NCBI RefSeq assembly: GCF_000953015.1
Contig: NZ_LN794158.1
Coordinates: 620,001-684,000 of the forward strand
DNA: 64,000 nt
From: Candidatus Methylopumilus turicensis
Lineage (GTDB): Bacteria; Pseudomonadota; Gammaproteobacteria; Burkholderiales; Methylophilaceae
Direction: 5' to 3'
The notes beneath the pieces are model-generated. The model was given only the letters and a program-made list of their open reading frames with translations, searched no databases and was not told where the DNA came from. The position numbers were made by a program, and so were the translations under genes. Positions within the stretch are counted from its first letter, which is position 1, and every line of letters starts with the position of its first letter. Shown here one piece after another: positions 5,795 through 16,005 of the stretch.

Positions 5795-7300
5795 TTAACG
5801 ACCACGTCCGCCGCCGCCTGTATGGCCACCACGACTGCCGCCATTGTTGCGGCTGGTATTACGTCCTGCATTTGGGTTAGGGCCTCTGTTTTGCGGTTTA
5901 GGCGCAAATAAAGCAGGCTGTGGCATGGCTTGATGACGCGCGGCCTCTGACATGTTTTTAGTCGAGGGGATTTGTGCTGGCACTCTATTGCCGTCAAAAG
6001 GTGCTTTGTCTGAACGTTGGCCTTGTGGCTTATTGCGGTTGTGTTGTGGCTTACCTTGTGAAGGTTTAGCGCCTGCGTTTTGTGGACGGCGTTGCTGAGG
6101 CCTTGGTGCACGGGGGGCTTCTGGTTCCGCTTTTTCAGGCTGCACCCAGCCATCAGCTGGCACTTTTGGAATCTCGCGCTTAATCAGCTTTTCAATGTCT
6201 TTGAGTAGCTTTAATTCTTCACGGTCAACTAATGAAACCGCGGCACCACTGCTCCCTGCGCGACCAGTTCTACCAATGCGGTGGACGTAGTCTTCAGGCA
6301 CATTAGGCAGCTCAAAGTTAATGACTTGTGGCAATTGATCAATATCCAAACCGCGTGCGGCAATGTCGGTAGCCACTAATACACGTACGGTACCGTCTTT
6401 GAACTGCGCCAAAGCTTTGGTGCGCGCGCCTTGGCTCTTATTGCCATGAATGGCTGCGGCTTCAATGCCATCTTTCACTAATTTTTCAGCTAAGCGGTTT
6501 GCGCCGTGTTTTGTACGGGTAAACACTAATACTTGTTGCCAGTTATTGTGCGACACTAAGTGACTGACTAGTTCACGCTTAAAGCTTTGGCTAATCATGT
6601 GAACGGTTTGCTCAACGAGTTCTGAAGCCGTATTGCGTCGAGCGACTTCAACAAAGCCTGGGTTGTTTAATAAACCATCTGCCAGTGCTTTAATTTCATC
6701 AGAGAACGTGGCTGAGAACAGTAAGTTTTGGCGCGCTTTAGGCAATAATGCCAAGATTTTTTTAATGTCACGAATGAAGCCCATGTCGAGCATACGGTCT
6801 GCTTCGTCTAGCACTAAAATCTCTACGCCTGATAAATCGACTGCCTTTTGGTTAGCTAAATCCAACAATCGGCCTGGCGTTGCCACTAAGATATCTAAAG
6901 GTTTTCTTAAGCGCGACATTTGTGGATTGATATTCACCCCTCCAAAAATGACTGTTGAAGTAAGTGATAAATATTTGCCATATGTTTTAACAGATTCTTC
7001 AATCTGTGCGGCAAGCTCGCGTGTTGGTGTCAGCATGAGGCAGCGAGGGCGACCTTTGCCTATGTCAGCCACTGGTTTTTGGCTAAGGATATGCAAAATC
7101 GGTAAAGTAAAACCAGCGGTTTTACCTGTGCCTGTTTGTGCGCCAGCGAGTAAATCACCGCCCGTGAGGACTTGTGGAATCGCTTGCACTTGAATTGGGG
7201 TGGGCGTGGTGTAACCCGCATCGTTAATGGCGCGGAGAATAGGTTCTGCTAAGCCTAAATCATTAAAATTTGGGCTAGGGTTTGTAACTTCTGAAGACAA
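5795..7300 (-). CDS. rhlE: DEAD-box ATP-dependent RNA helicase RhlE
   Basis: The 501-residue protein has all the DEAD-box helicase motifs: the Q-motif region [18 protein letters not shown] (motif I), PTRELA (Ia), DEAD (II), SAT (III), ARGLDID (V) and [10 protein letters not shown] (VI). After about residue 380 comes a low-complexity basic tail rich in Pro, Gln, Asn and Arg that ends in Gly/Arg-rich repeats ([15 protein letters not shown]). Such tails bind RNA or assist condensate formation in RhlE relatives. A 174-nt leader separates it from rsuA. Its job is probably RNA remodelling in ribosome assembly or mRNA decay. Confidence 0.93.
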
Positions 7301-7474: not shown

Positions 7475-8200
7475 TTAAATTTTTTCAGTATGCGTGAGTA
7501 GATGTAACTCTTCCGCTGTGAGCCAACGCCATTCGCCATCAGCAAGGTCTTTCGGTAACGTCACTTCACCAATCTTGATACGTTTGAGGCCTTCTACTCG
7601 GTTGCTATTCGCGGCAACCATGCGTTTAACTTGGTGATATTTGCCTTCAGCTAGAGTCATGTGAAGAATGTGGCTACTGACTTGCTCGCAAGCCAGCGCA
7701 GCAATCGGTGCTGGTTCATCAATGAGTTGCACGCCATCGAGTAGATTTTTGATTTGTGCTTCGTCTACAGGGTGCTTGCAATACACTTCGTAAATTTTTG
7801 GCACTTTCCATTTAGGCGAGCTGAGGCGATGGATGAAATGGCCATCATCAGAAAGTAAAATCAACCCTGTGGTGTCTTCATCTAAACGACCAATGCATTG
7901 CACATCGCGTTCAACCAAAGCGTGTGGCAATAAGCTGTAAACCGACGGGTGATGAATGGTTTTGTGTGAGCATTCGTAATGCGCTGGTTTGTTGAGCATT
8001 AAGTAAGCTTGTTCGCGATATTGCCAAGGTTCACCATCGACTGTGAAGTGTAAGTTTTCAGTATGGAATTCTGCAAATGGGTCATCACAAGGTTCGCCAT
8101 TGACGGTCACGGCATCATGTCTGACTAAGATGCGGCAGGCTTTACGTGAGCCAAAGCCTTGGGAATGTAAAACACGTTCTATCGATATTTTTTTAGACAT
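7475..8200 (-). CDS. rsuA: 16S rRNA pseudouridine synthase RsuA
   Basis: The 241-residue protein has an N-terminal S4 RNA-binding domain (residues about 3-60) and a pseudouridine synthase domain with the RsuA/RluB-type active-site motif GRLDEDTTGLIL, whose first Asp is the catalytic residue. The length and the SPKWKVPKIYEV segment favour RsuA (position 516 of 16S rRNA) over RluB/RluE, but the exact target site is inferred. It lies 7 nt downstream of rpiA on the same strand. Confidence 0.88.
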   Translation of the reverse strand: MSKKISIERVLHSQGFGSRKACRILVRHDAVTVNGEPCDDPFAEFHTENLHFTVDGEPWQYREQAYLMLNKPAHYECSHKTIHHPSVYSLLPHALVERDVQCIGRLDEDTTGLILLSDDGHFIHRLSSPKWKVPKIYEVYCKHPVDEAQIKNLLDGVQLIDEPAPIAALACEQVSSHILHMTLAEGKYHQVKRMVAANSNRVEGLKRIKIGEVTLPKDLADGEWRWLTAEELHLLTHTEKI

Positions 8201-8207
8201 GGCGGCA

Positions 8208-8897
8208 TTATAGAGGCTTTTGCGTGAGCATCACTTCAATATTGCCATTATCTGCAATCAACACTTGGCTAGCGATGCCATAAAACACGCCGTGTTCCAC
8301 AACGCCAGTTGTATTGTTGAGTAAAGTGTTAAGTGCTTCATCGCTGATGTGTTCAGGAAAATGCATATCTAAAATATAGCTACCATGCGCACTAACAGCG
8401 ACATTGTCTTTGCCAGTATTTAGGCGGATATCACCTTTTGCACCATGTTTTTCTAGTTGGTGTTTGACCATTTTCCAAGCGTCAGGGATGACTTCAATCG
8501 GGATGATGAATTTTTCGCCTATACGGCTCACAAGCTTACCCTTATCAGCGACTACGATGAATTGATTCGCTGCTTTTGCGAGGAGTTTTTCCATCACCAA
8601 ATCTTGCCCACGGCCTTTGAGCAGGCTTAAATTGGGGGTGATTTCATCCGCACCATCGACATATAAATTAATACGACTTAGCTGAGATATCGCGACGACC
8701 TTGAGCCCGCAACTTTCTGCTTTGATGGCGCTAATTGTGGAGCTGGCTACGGTACTGATGCTCAAGCCTTCATCTGATTGGCGTTTAGCTAAGTGCTCAA
8801 TAAAGTAATTGGCGGTAGAGCCTGTGCCTAAGCCAATCACCATGCCATTTTTGGCGAGCTTGGCTGCTTTAAAAGCGACTAGTTCTTTATCGTTCAT
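8208..8897 (-). CDS. rpiA: Ribose-5-phosphate isomerase A
   Basis: The 229-residue enzyme interconverts ribose 5-phosphate and ribulose 5-phosphate in the pentose phosphate pathway (and the ribulose monophosphate cycle of methylotrophs). Family motifs are GLGTGSTANYFI near the N-terminus, YVDGADEI with the catalytic acidic residues, and KGRGQDLVMEK. Length is normal. It sits between the GST gene (12 nt upstream) and rsuA (7 nt downstream), so the three probably form one transcript. Confidence 0.96.
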   Translation of the reverse strand: MNDKELVAFKAAKLAKNGMVIGLGTGSTANYFIEHLAKRQSDEGLSISTVASSTISAIKAESCGLKVVAISQLSRINLYVDGADEITPNLSLLKGRGQDLVMEKLLAKAANQFIVVADKGKLVSRIGEKFIIPIEVIPDAWKMVKHQLEKHGAKGDIRLNTGKDNVAVSAHGSYILDMHFPEHISDEALNTLLNNTTGVVEHGVFYGIASQVLIADNGNIEVMLTQKPL

Positions 8898-8909
8898 CTT
8901 GTTTTTCCT

Positions 8910-9527
8910 TTAAGTGGCATCGGCTTCACGTTTCCTGGCGCGGGTGAGGGCAGGACGTTCTGAAACTCGATTCATATAACTCAGTAAAGTGTCGTCGAGC
9001 GTCACTTTGACGTGATGTGCCCAGTGTAAAACCGAAACGCAAATGATATCTGCTGCGCTAAATTGGTCGCCAGCCAAATAGGGCTGTGCTTTAAGATGCG
9101 TACTTAAAATAGCCGCCGCTTTTTCAAACTCCCAATAGCTGGTGTTTGCGATGTCTGGGATGCGTTTATCTTCGGGTAGAAAGCGGTCATGTTTGGCCGC
9201 TGTCCATAAATGTACCTCTAACTCTGAAACTACAAAAAATAGCCATTGAAAATACGCCGCTCTGCTTTTTGCATCAGTTGGAATCAGCTTGGCCGCAGGA
9301 AATTTTTCAGCAATATGAGTACAGATTGCCGCAGACTCGCTGATGACTAGCCCATCATCAACCAAGCTTGGAATTTTCCCAAAGGGATTAATCGCTAAAA
9401 ATGCAGGCTGTTTATGTTCGCCTGTGCGTAAGTTGACGAGTCCGTATTCGTACTCGGCATTTGCTTCTTCTAAGGCCCATGCAACGCGTACCGAGCGGGT
9501 TTGTGGAAAACCGTAAAGTTTAATCAT
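8910..9527 (-). CDS. Glutathione S-transferase family protein
   Basis: The 205-residue protein has the N-terminal thioredoxin-like GST domain (MIKLYGFPQTRSVRVAWALEE, with NPFGKIPSLVDDG and ISESAAICTHI binding the glutathione gamma-glutamyl moiety) and an alpha-helical C-terminal domain. The ATG at 9527 is preferred over an in-frame upstream start at 9584, because GST family proteins begin directly with the first beta strand. The substrate is not evident. It is followed 12 nt later by rpiA. Confidence 0.88.
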   Translation of the reverse strand: MIKLYGFPQTRSVRVAWALEEANAEYEYGLVNLRTGEHKQPAFLAINPFGKIPSLVDDGLVISESAAICTHIAEKFPAAKLIPTDAKSRAAYFQWLFFVVSELEVHLWTAAKHDRFLPEDKRIPDIANTSYWEFEKAAAILSTHLKAQPYLAGDQFSAADIICVSVLHWAHHVKVTLDDTLLSYMNRVSERPALTRARKREADAT

Positions 9528-14153: not shown

Positions 14154-14181
14154 GGCTCAGAACAAACTTCTGAGCCTTTTT
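14154..14181. terminator. Intrinsic terminator after amt
   Basis: A 9-bp perfect stem (GGCTCAGAA, 14154-14162, with TTCTGAGCC, 14168-14176) and a 5-nt loop are followed by five T. The complement strand carries TTTTCTTT after the stem, so it can also stop transcripts of the MerT-like gene. Confidence 0.9.
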
Positions 14182-14217: not shown

Positions 14218-14616
14218 TTAGTCAATCCAATAGGGCGCAACAAAAGCGAACCAAGAACCCATAGCAAATAGTAGTAACGAGATGCCATAAATCACATTCG
14301 ACATCTTTCTTGCCTTCATACAAGCTTGGGCCAGCTGTTTATCTGCTGGACAAGCTAACTTAGAAGCGCGCCACTGCATCAGCCCAGCAAGTAGTAATAA
14401 CGTTCCTGCGATACCGAATACAAGTGGCTTATGCTCGCTAATCCAAATGAGTTGTGGCACTTTGCTGGCCAGGCCAACCATCACTGCGCCCAAGCCTAAG
14501 CTCACTAGTAATGCAGGAATGGCGCAACATATCAGCGTTGCACTGCTGGTAAAAAGAATTAGCCAGTTGACCGCGAGCATTTTTTTAATTGAGAGTATTT
14601 GAGGTTGAGCGCTCAT
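14218..14616 (-). CDS. MerT-like membrane metal transporter
   Basis: The 132-residue protein has three predicted membrane segments. The first contains the vicinal cysteine pair CC (TLICCAIPALLV) as in mercuric transporter MerT, and the loop after the second has a second pair (LACPADKQLAQACMKAR) in the place of MerT's cytoplasmic pair. The end SWFAFVAPYWID also resembles MerT. A start at ATG 14616 is chosen: it overlaps the upstream stop as TGATG, has GGAG 8 nt before it, and a GTG lies one codon upstream. No merA or merR is nearby, so the transported metal may not be mercury. It is the last gene of a four-gene cluster. Confidence 0.75.
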   Translation of the reverse strand: MSAQPQILSIKKMLAVNWLILFTSSATLICCAIPALLVSLGLGAVMVGLASKVPQLIWISEHKPLVFGIAGTLLLLAGLMQWRASKLACPADKQLAQACMKARKMSNVIYGISLLLFAMGSWFAFVAPYWID

Positions 14617-14951
14617 CACTTCATCTCCTTCACATGGGAATGGTCAGCTTTGATTTCAACGAGTGTCTTGTTGATATATTCAACACTAGCCACCTCGTAG
14701 CCTGCGTCTTTAATCACTTTTGTAAAAACCTCTAAACTCATGTTTTTTTGGTCTTTGAGTTCAACCACTACCACACGGCTTTTTAAGTCCACCCAAACAT
14801 CTTGGGTAGCGTCTAGTTCGCGCAGTTTTTTATTAATGCCTTTTGCACAAAATGCACACACCATCCCTTTCACCTCAGCGTGAATTGAAGTTGCAGCAAA
14901 TGCTGTGTTAGTAAAAATGGCTAAGATTGCGATAACAAATAATTTTTTCAT
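14616..14951 (-). CDS. MerP-like periplasmic heavy-metal-binding protein
   Basis: The 111-residue protein has a signal peptide (cleavage probably after AFA) and one heavy-metal-associated (HMA) domain with the metal-binding motif GMVCAFCAKG, a CxxC variant. It ends with a short charged, His-containing tail (KADHSHVKEMK). AAGGA precedes the ATG. It overlaps the MerT-like gene by one base, so the two are translationally coupled, the usual order of a periplasmic binder feeding a membrane transporter. Confidence 0.82.
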   Translation of the reverse strand: MKKLFVIAILAIFTNTAFAATSIHAEVKGMVCAFCAKGINKKLRELDATQDVWVDLKSRVVVVELKDQKNMSLEVFTKVIKDAGYEVASVEYINKTLVEIKADHSHVKEMK

Positions 14952-14964
14952 GATCAGTCCTTAA

Positions 14965-15606
14965 TTAAAAAGTAAGCATTAAATTGAGTCGGGGTGTGCG
15001 TGACGCTGCATCCCATGGATTGGTAATCCCTAACTCAAGAAAGTAGTTTTGATTGATGAGTCGAAGTGCTGGCGTCACCTCATTTTTTGTCATCATGTTT
15101 TCAGACGTTTTGGCTTCAATGACAAGCCAAGGTTGAGTTTCCTCAAAACTTGTTTCGTAGAGAGAAAAACCGCTTTGAACGCTGTAGGTGTCATATTGAA
15201 TATGAGGGGCACGTACTATTCTTGCCTTGGCTAAGAAATAGATGCGCGTTGTTTCATAATCAAACTGAACGCTTGGTGAGTAGGAGAATCCACTTGAATC
15301 GCCAGACGCTTCTCCTATGCCGGTCATGAACCATAAGTTGGCTTGACCATTTGGCATATTCCAGCGCTTGATGAGGCCTGCGTAATTGATGTTGGTAATG
15401 AGGTTGGTTTGCTTGTCGCCTCTCATCCACATAGTTTCAACGCCAAAAGCATGACCAAGTGCTGGAGAGTAGTTAAGCATGAGTTCTTTTCTATCGTTAG
15501 AAAACTCACTCATTAGCATTGCGCTATCCTTGAATCCCATTAATGCAGCCGCTTGTGCTGAAAATGTGATTGATAGCAGCAATGCAAGAAATAGTCTTGC
15601 ATGCAT
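14965..15606 (-). CDS. Putative outer-membrane beta-barrel protein in metal cluster
   Basis: The 213-residue protein starts with a signal peptide (cut after AQA) and continues as alternating, aromatic-rich strands, ending in LNLMLTF with a C-terminal phenylalanine, as in outer-membrane barrels. There are no cysteines in the mature part. I do not recognise a named family. GGAGG precedes the ATG at 15606. It lies 13 nt upstream of the MerP-like gene and is probably cotranscribed, which suggests an envelope role in metal handling; this is inference. Confidence 0.6.
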   Translation of the reverse strand: MHARLFLALLLSITFSAQAAALMGFKDSAMLMSEFSNDRKELMLNYSPALGHAFGVETMWMRGDKQTNLITNINYAGLIKRWNMPNGQANLWFMTGIGEASGDSSGFSYSPSVQFDYETTRIYFLAKARIVRAPHIQYDTYSVQSGFSLYETSFEETQPWLVIEAKTSENMMTKNEVTPALRLINQNYFLELGITNPWDAASRTPRLNLMLTF

Positions 15607-15642
15607 GATGCCTCCGAAAATAATTTAAAAAATTACGATGCT

Positions 15643-16005
15643 TTAAGCATCAATCGGAGGGCGATTTTCTGGGGTGATGTGATGCGTAGAGGAAGCCCAT
15701 ATAGCGAAGGATGCTAAAGGGGAGTTTTGAGAAGTGACGTGGGTTGTGCTCTCATGGATCGGTGCCGCAAAACTTAGGCAGAAGCCACAGTGCTGACAAT
15801 TCGAACCGCCAGCATGGTGTTGAGTATCATGATGCCCACTAGATTCTTTTGAATCCATTTGGTGGCAGGCGTGTGGCGGCTGCACAATTTGATGTGAGCT
15901 TGCATTCGCTAATTCCATTTGCGTTGCAGCATAAGCTGCACCACTAAAAAACAGTGGTGTCCAAACCATGAGCATTAAGGCTACAAATTTACGAATGGAC
16001 TTCAT
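15643..16005 (-). CDS. Small secreted Cys/His-rich protein, metal cluster
   Basis: From ATG 16005 the protein has 120 residues: a signal peptide (MKSIRKFVALMLMVWTPL, cut after YAA or AYA), a His-rich linker (HACHQM, SGHHDTQHHAGG) and a cysteine cluster NCQHCGFC, then a tail ending ENRPPIDA. The layout resembles small periplasmic metal-associated proteins such as CzcI or DUF2946 members; this is a resemblance, not a firm assignment. An in-frame ATG at 16041 would add an unneeded n-region; neither start has a clear ribosome binding site. It is the first gene of the cluster and lies 36 nt upstream of the barrel gene. Confidence 0.62.
   Translation of the reverse strand: MKSIRKFVALMLMVWTPLFFSGAAYAATQMELANASSHQIVQPPHACHQMDSKESSGHHDTQHHAGGSNCQHCGFCLSFAAPIHESTTHVTSQNSPLASFAIWASSTHHITPENRPPIDA

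Follow-up and report, generated by a model that had tools for sequence, protein, structure and literature searches.

A conserved barrel–MerP-like–MerT-like gene unit, probably for copper, with a putative copper-sensing leader peptide in Candidatus Methylopumilus turicensis

The window analyzed here, a stretch of 64,000 nucleotides from the genome of the freshwater methylotroph Candidatus Methylopumilus turicensis, carries four genes on its minus strand which we read, at a probability of roughly 0.6, as a module for copper that includes its own cis-acting sensor of the metal. It would consist of a leader peptide, an outer-membrane barrel, a MerP-like and a MerT-like protein. The cluster apparently represents a real and conserved copper module that has so far escaped description, as no published account of the module or of copper transport by a MerT-like protein was found in the literature searched (open-licence papers). 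The leader peptide belongs to a known regulatory kind, and the barrel–MerP–MerT set varies known trans-envelope copper systems.

Gene layout and protein models

The cluster begins with a gene for a small secreted Cys/His protein (P0004, 15643..16005), followed by those for a beta-barrel (P0003, 14965..15606), a MerP-like periplasmic HMA protein (P0002, 14616..14951) and a MerT-like inner-membrane protein (P0001, 14218..14619), all on the minus strand. Checking the open reading frame coordinates confirmed these four genes as described in an earlier note on this DNA, as well as its intergenic gaps of 13 and 36 nt and the motifs it had named, i.e., both cysteine pairs of the MerT-like protein (C31 C32 and C90/C100), GMVCAFC in the MerP-like and NCQHCGFC in the Cys/His protein. 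The one-base overlap reported for the MerT- and MerP-like genes holds when counted from the ATG start but becomes four bases from the GTG start. The Cys/His frame might alternatively start at an upstream ATG (16041). A terminator-like hairpin 3' of the MerT-like gene (14154..14176, minus strand; a consensus match only) likely forms the end of the four-gene unit, and a promoter scan yielded matches no more numerous than in shuffled sequence. The upstream DUF779 and aldehyde dehydrogenase genes were discarded as members of the system, as they are common only to very close relatives.

The barrel protein carries a signal sequence and has no Pfam or NCBIfam match, and a PDB sequence search also returned no match. 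Structure prediction, proposed earlier as a check on the putative outer-membrane barrel, gave a confident barrel model of about 12 strands (pLDDT 90.5) and not a soluble protein. The nearest folds include the porins KdgM and NanC, behind which PcoB (7pge) was a moderate match (TM 0.42-0.44). The model thus shares the 12-stranded outer-membrane barrel that defines CopB/PcoB structurally. Homology to CopB/PcoB was nevertheless rejected, as sequence support was absent (no Pfam match to PF05275; hhalign probability 1.8) and the fold likeness is only generic.

The MerT-like protein was modelled with three long helices (pLDDT 81.5), in which C31/C32 lie in the first helix and C90/C100 between the second and third; these four cysteines were invariant in 45 aligned sequences. 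The model is therefore in line with the structural features of MerT, namely vicinal cysteines in TM1, a second pair in the TM2-TM3 loop and three helices. By sequence, the protein scored 18.8 bits against NF010314 (cut-off 150), PF02411 (MerT) had no match in the window's genome at E<=0.001, and small searches with a profile of the MerT-like family recovered true MerT weakly, at E 8.5e-6 to 1.7e-3. Neither Foldseek with the model against the PDB nor a PDB sequence search returned a useful match. The MerP-like protein passes the HMA domain model PF00403 (32.2 bits; cut-off 24.8) and remains at 41.8 bits against TIGR02052 (cut-off 92.55). The two proteins accordingly resemble the mercury import pair MerT-MerP, which also combines an HMA protein with a small three-helix membrane protein whose cysteines form a CC pair in TM1 and another pair in the loop between TM2 and TM3, but they differ from it by falling below the MerT and MerP cut-offs, by the extra barrel, by the lack of MerA and by their copper neighbours.

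Conservation of the unit and the metal

The barrel, MerP-like and MerT-like genes are a conserved unit, far beyond chance. A barrel-profile scan recovered 80 named loci, mostly from Betaproteobacteria, in all of which the barrel and MerP-like genes are adjacent on one strand; order and strand of all three genes are kept in 78, and in the two exceptions (L038 and L094) the contigs stop before the MerT-like gene. The co-occurrence that the earlier note had wished to see verified by a gene-neighbourhood search was therefore found, and together with the barrel model it supports the proposed metal module that would reach from the outer membrane through the periplasm to the inner membrane. Within the Methylophilaceae, the barrel was found in 80 of 187 genomes, many of them small, and the module also occurs in Polynucleobacter, Limnohabitans and Polaromonas. 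Distant barrel members from elsewhere in the class are likewise accompanied by MerP- and MerT-like genes. The Cys/His gene lies upstream of the unit in most Methylophilaceae, while in many Burkholderiales it is found at varying distance or in another position. A second full copy of the cluster is present in the window's genome (G000:C1, about 1.433-1.435 Mb), its MerT-like protein being 88% identical to that of the window.

Several minor features of these neighbourhoods were recorded. The second copy is located close to an integrase-like gene in both the window's genome and a sister genome (L021 4333-5553; L022 5487-6701), which suggests that it arrived with an integrated element. In many Methylophilaceae (L040-L049, L053, L058, L061 and others) a Gre-type transcription factor gene precedes the cluster in the same direction and at a short gap. 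In 13 stretches from several families (L026, L036, L050, L053, L058, L063, L069, L073, L074, L090, L092, L099, L115), the cluster has a gene for a small DUF3147/GlpM-like membrane protein in its vicinity. Clusters of betaproteobacterial type were also found in bins named as Mycobacteriaceae, Saccharibacteria, Cytophagales, Coxiellaceae or Klebsiella (L062, L078, L088, L090, L108, L110), for which misnaming or contamination of the bins is the probable reason.

Of 103 stretches retrieved, some of them redundant and many ending short, 24 have CusF and/or multicopper oxidase (MCO) genes next to the unit. By gene, CusF was counted in 22 of these 103 stretches, MCO in 12, OMF in 10, cupredoxin in seven and DUF411 in three, and example neighbours were confirmed by Pfam. 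In Polaromonas, Limnohabitans and others, a leader is followed by OMF (PF02321), a Tat MCO (PF07732/PF07731), cupredoxin and CusF (PF11604, E 1.4e-28) and then by barrel, MerP and MerT, with an additional DUF411 before the barrel in the Polaromonas operon L113. The order is leader, CusF, barrel, MerP, MerT in Polynucleobacter, and barrel, MerP, MerT, OMF, MCO in two Methylotenera loci (L053 and L081); in L106, a P1B ATPase passing the copper-subfamily cut-off is located directly upstream of the cluster. Neither of the two copies in the window's genome has a copper gene next to it; copper is assigned by way of these relatives, and it is very likely the metal in Candidatus Methylopumilus turicensis, too. 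The earlier view that nothing here names a metal applies to the window's silent neighbours but does not extend to the homologous operons elsewhere.

The names MerT and MerP might instead point to a different thiophilic metal (Hg, Zn, Cd or Ag) as the cargo. Apart from the distant similarity to both proteins, an ArsR-like gene next to MerT in L034 and an RND-efflux-like cluster near the unit in L032 would fit such a role. We consider it highly improbable, as the recurring neighbours are copper genes, copper-ATPase and CopZ domains are better matches to the MerP-like profile than MerP is, and no MerA above the family cut-off occurred in any Methylophilaceae genome searched. In the window's genome the best MerA-profile score was 292.6 bits (cut-off 454.45), in agreement with the earlier reading that a mercury reductase is missing. 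The MerA search and inspection of the neighbourhoods also revealed no mer operon, i.e., no merA and merR with the transport genes, and no standard mercury resistance next to homologues. Mercury resistance was therefore rejected, the proteins also lying below the MerT and MerP cut-offs, and so were lanthanides and calcium, for which no neighbourhood examined gave support.

The first gene and its RNA junction with the barrel gene

P0004 comprises 120 amino acids with a signal peptide (judged by eye), a CxxCxxC motif and the C-terminal end RPPIDA. It precedes the barrel gene by 36 nt. Both CruR (PMC9426467) and CutF (PMC9973294) sense copper as leader peptides that carry a Cys motif and, at the C-terminus, a Pro-Pro motif for stalling; the DUF2946 literature places CopL in the same network. 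CutF-like proteins have been defined by a length below 150 amino acids, PP within the last 15 residues, a Sec signal and a downstream gene on the same strand within 1000 nt (PMC9973294), and P0004 agrees with this list in size, PP, signal and distance. Its matches to the DUF2946, CopL and CzcI models are weak, with 18.1 bits for DUF2946 (PF11162; cut-off 23.7) and 19.8 bits for CopL (NF033807; cut-off 40). Relatives of P0004 match CopL better, at up to E 4e-6, the best being that of L053 with 27.5 bits. A C-terminal (R/K)PPI or a near variant occurs in nearly all detected leaders, that of L073 being frame-shifted or misread, and CxxC and xPP are separated by 36-44 residues, in most cases by 41 or 44 (n=45 leaders with a plain CxxC), compared to 45 for the corresponding spacing in CruR. 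Several Methylotenera leaders carry CxxxC-type motifs instead of CxxC. Hence, P0004 shares with CutF (Rhodobacter), CruR (Bordetella), CopL (Xanthomonas) and DUF2946 relatives the small size, the Sec signal, the Cys motif, the C-terminal Pro-Pro motif at near-fixed spacing and the position ahead of copper genes. It differs in not reaching the family cut-offs and in preceding a barrel–MerP–MerT unit, which is unnamed in the main text of the CutF paper (PMC9973294).

At the junction to the barrel gene, the sequence CCUCCGA (15654..15660, minus strand), formed by the leader's Pro-Pro codons and the first base of the Ile codon, is exactly complementary to UCGGAGG (15611..15617, minus strand), the barrel gene's Shine-Dalgarno sequence. 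The segment is predicted to fold as a three-way junction that sequesters the latter, at a minimum free energy of -17.4 kcal/mol versus -8.2 for shuffled sequence (z -3.64). Between the two arms lies a terminator-like inner hairpin, GAUGCUUAAAGCAUC (15637..15651, minus strand; 15636..15652 as a terminator-like element), which contains the leader stop codon and is followed by a U-rich run; transcription attenuation at this hairpin may act together with shielding of the Shine-Dalgarno sequence. The predicted stem corresponds to that shielding the next gene's Shine-Dalgarno sequence in CutF, with the difference that in the window's clade the Pro-Pro codons themselves form the pairing arm. In Methylotenera, it is instead the codons directly following PPI that pair (UUCCUUUCUUAA/UUAAGAAAGGAA in L053, UUCCUAUCUUAA/AAAGAUAGGAA in L066), with changes on both sides between species, as seen by visual inspection rather than by a formal count of covariation.

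Across 35 dissimilar loci, from which four with doubtful starts or frames had been excluded, the duplex between leader 3' end and Shine-Dalgarno sequence had a mean energy of -13.5 kcal/mol for own versus -9.3 for swapped partners (Wilcoxon 1.6e-9), a comparison that is partly open to within-genome base composition. The test against dinucleotide-shuffled 3' ends is free of that effect and gave p<=0.05 for 16 of 35 leader-barrel junctions and for none of 20 barrel-MerP control junctions, for some of which a shorter 3' end was used. In a weaker test, the pairing probability of the Shine-Dalgarno sequence in the folded leader exceeded that in shuffled leaders modestly (0.82 vs 0.73).

The pairing could also represent plain translational coupling, as neighbouring genes are often coupled by hairpins of this kind, and the Cys/His-rich protein with its signal peptide would then be a periplasmic metal sponge or chaperone. 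We regard this as unlikely, since RPPI and the distance between Cys motif and PPI are retained in a protein whose body is otherwise poorly conserved, and the pairing is missing at the barrel-to-MerP junction. In addition, CutF could not be detected in cells and exerts its effect in cis alone, and CruR is regarded as short-lived. Leader function of the first gene is likely, and P0004 is most probably a copper-sensing leader peptide of the CutF/CruR/CopL type rather than a sequestration protein. The cluster had been described as lacking a regulator, but by its leader features, RPPI and the Shine-Dalgarno pairing, the Cys/His gene most probably fills this role itself. The control may be of the CutF type, in which copper turns expression on, or of the CruR type, in which copper turns it off; both fit the sequence. 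The Polaromonas operon L113 seemingly possesses two leader peptides, one at its head (983-1396) and one just before CusF-barrel-MerP-MerT (6217-6573).

Direction of transport and relation to known copper systems

In the proposed mechanism, the first gene would be translated as a small Sec-exported peptide whose Cys motif senses copper. Stalling at the C-terminal (R/K)PPI would hold the ribosome on the codons that otherwise pair with the barrel gene's Shine-Dalgarno sequence, so that the three transport genes would become open to translation. The 12-stranded barrel would pass copper across the outer membrane, the MerP-like protein would bind it in the periplasm, and the MerT-like protein, by analogy with MerT, would hand it through the inner membrane via its two cysteine pairs. 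The one Cu ATPase detected in the window's genome (PF12156), a CcoI-type pump whose adjoining genes were read as CcoG and cbb3 oxidase subunits, would require copper in the cytoplasm.

An inward flow of copper is somewhat favoured because barrel, binding protein and small carrier form an unpumped route, by analogy with PcoB (PMC9210255) and MerT. Searches of the window's genome for MCO and CopB (PF05275) found neither, and with the CcoI-type pump as the one Cu ATPase this renders a supply of copper to the oxidase plausible. A search for CopD had matches in almost every relative, irrespective of the presence of the module, and gave no exclusion pattern. Metal import, as suggested earlier, is a matter of inference.

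Alternatively, the module may serve copper tolerance, being induced by excess copper and working with MCO, CusF and OMF without a nutritional role; barrel and MerP/MerT would then buffer copper in the periplasm or move it. Operons of the order leader-OMF-MCO-cupredoxin-CusF end with the unit in Burkholderiales, and the many homologous loci with MCO and OMF suit tolerance as well as uptake. Moreover, CutF, the closest worked-out leader, switches its operon on with copper (PMC9973294), and PcoB imports copper within a defence operon (PMC9210255). However, most Methylophilaceae copies occur without MCO, CusF or a pump, the window's genome maintains two copies with neither MCO nor CopB detected and a CcoI-type Cu ATPase only, and an inner-membrane importer would be an odd tool for this task. 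A purely tolerance-related role of the module is therefore rather doubtful, and in this particular genome supply and tolerance appear evenly balanced; the same unit may serve tolerance where it is part of MCO operons. Taken to its full extent, the import reading would be a dedicated copper route over both membranes feeding cbb3 oxidase assembly in small-genome freshwater bacteria, built from a so far unnamed family of 12-stranded barrels and a MerT-superfamily carrier. The switch would be a leader in which the Pro-Pro codons for stalling also serve as the anti-Shine-Dalgarno sequence. We put this reading forward only tentatively.

Among known systems, CopB/PcoB, CopC/PcoC and CopD/PcoD likewise combine an outer-membrane barrel (12-stranded in PcoB), a periplasmic copper protein and an inner-membrane protein and occur with MCO genes. 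In contrast, the barrel described here does not match CopB in sequence, the periplasmic part is an HMA domain instead of CopC, and the inner-membrane part is MerT-like instead of CopD. Copper acquisition by Gram-negative bacteria is poorly understood (PMC12914433). The receptors CrtA/OprC also take up copper at the outer membrane, and CruR leaders head over 40% of CrtA operons, but these are 22-stranded, plugged TonB-dependent receptors as opposed to the small barrel of the module (PMC12914433). The module would give a MerT-type carrier a role in copper transport and name a new family of outer-membrane barrels, and its leader would add a compact, testable case of metal sensing where a single pair of codons is used for stalling as well as for base pairing of the RNA. 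On two Vibrio plasmids (L002 and L003, around 7745-9389), a MerT-like protein with a heavy-metal-associated domain is encoded without a barrel; its gene comes after that of a GDCCVxC (seleno)protein, and in one case copper resistance genes adjoin.
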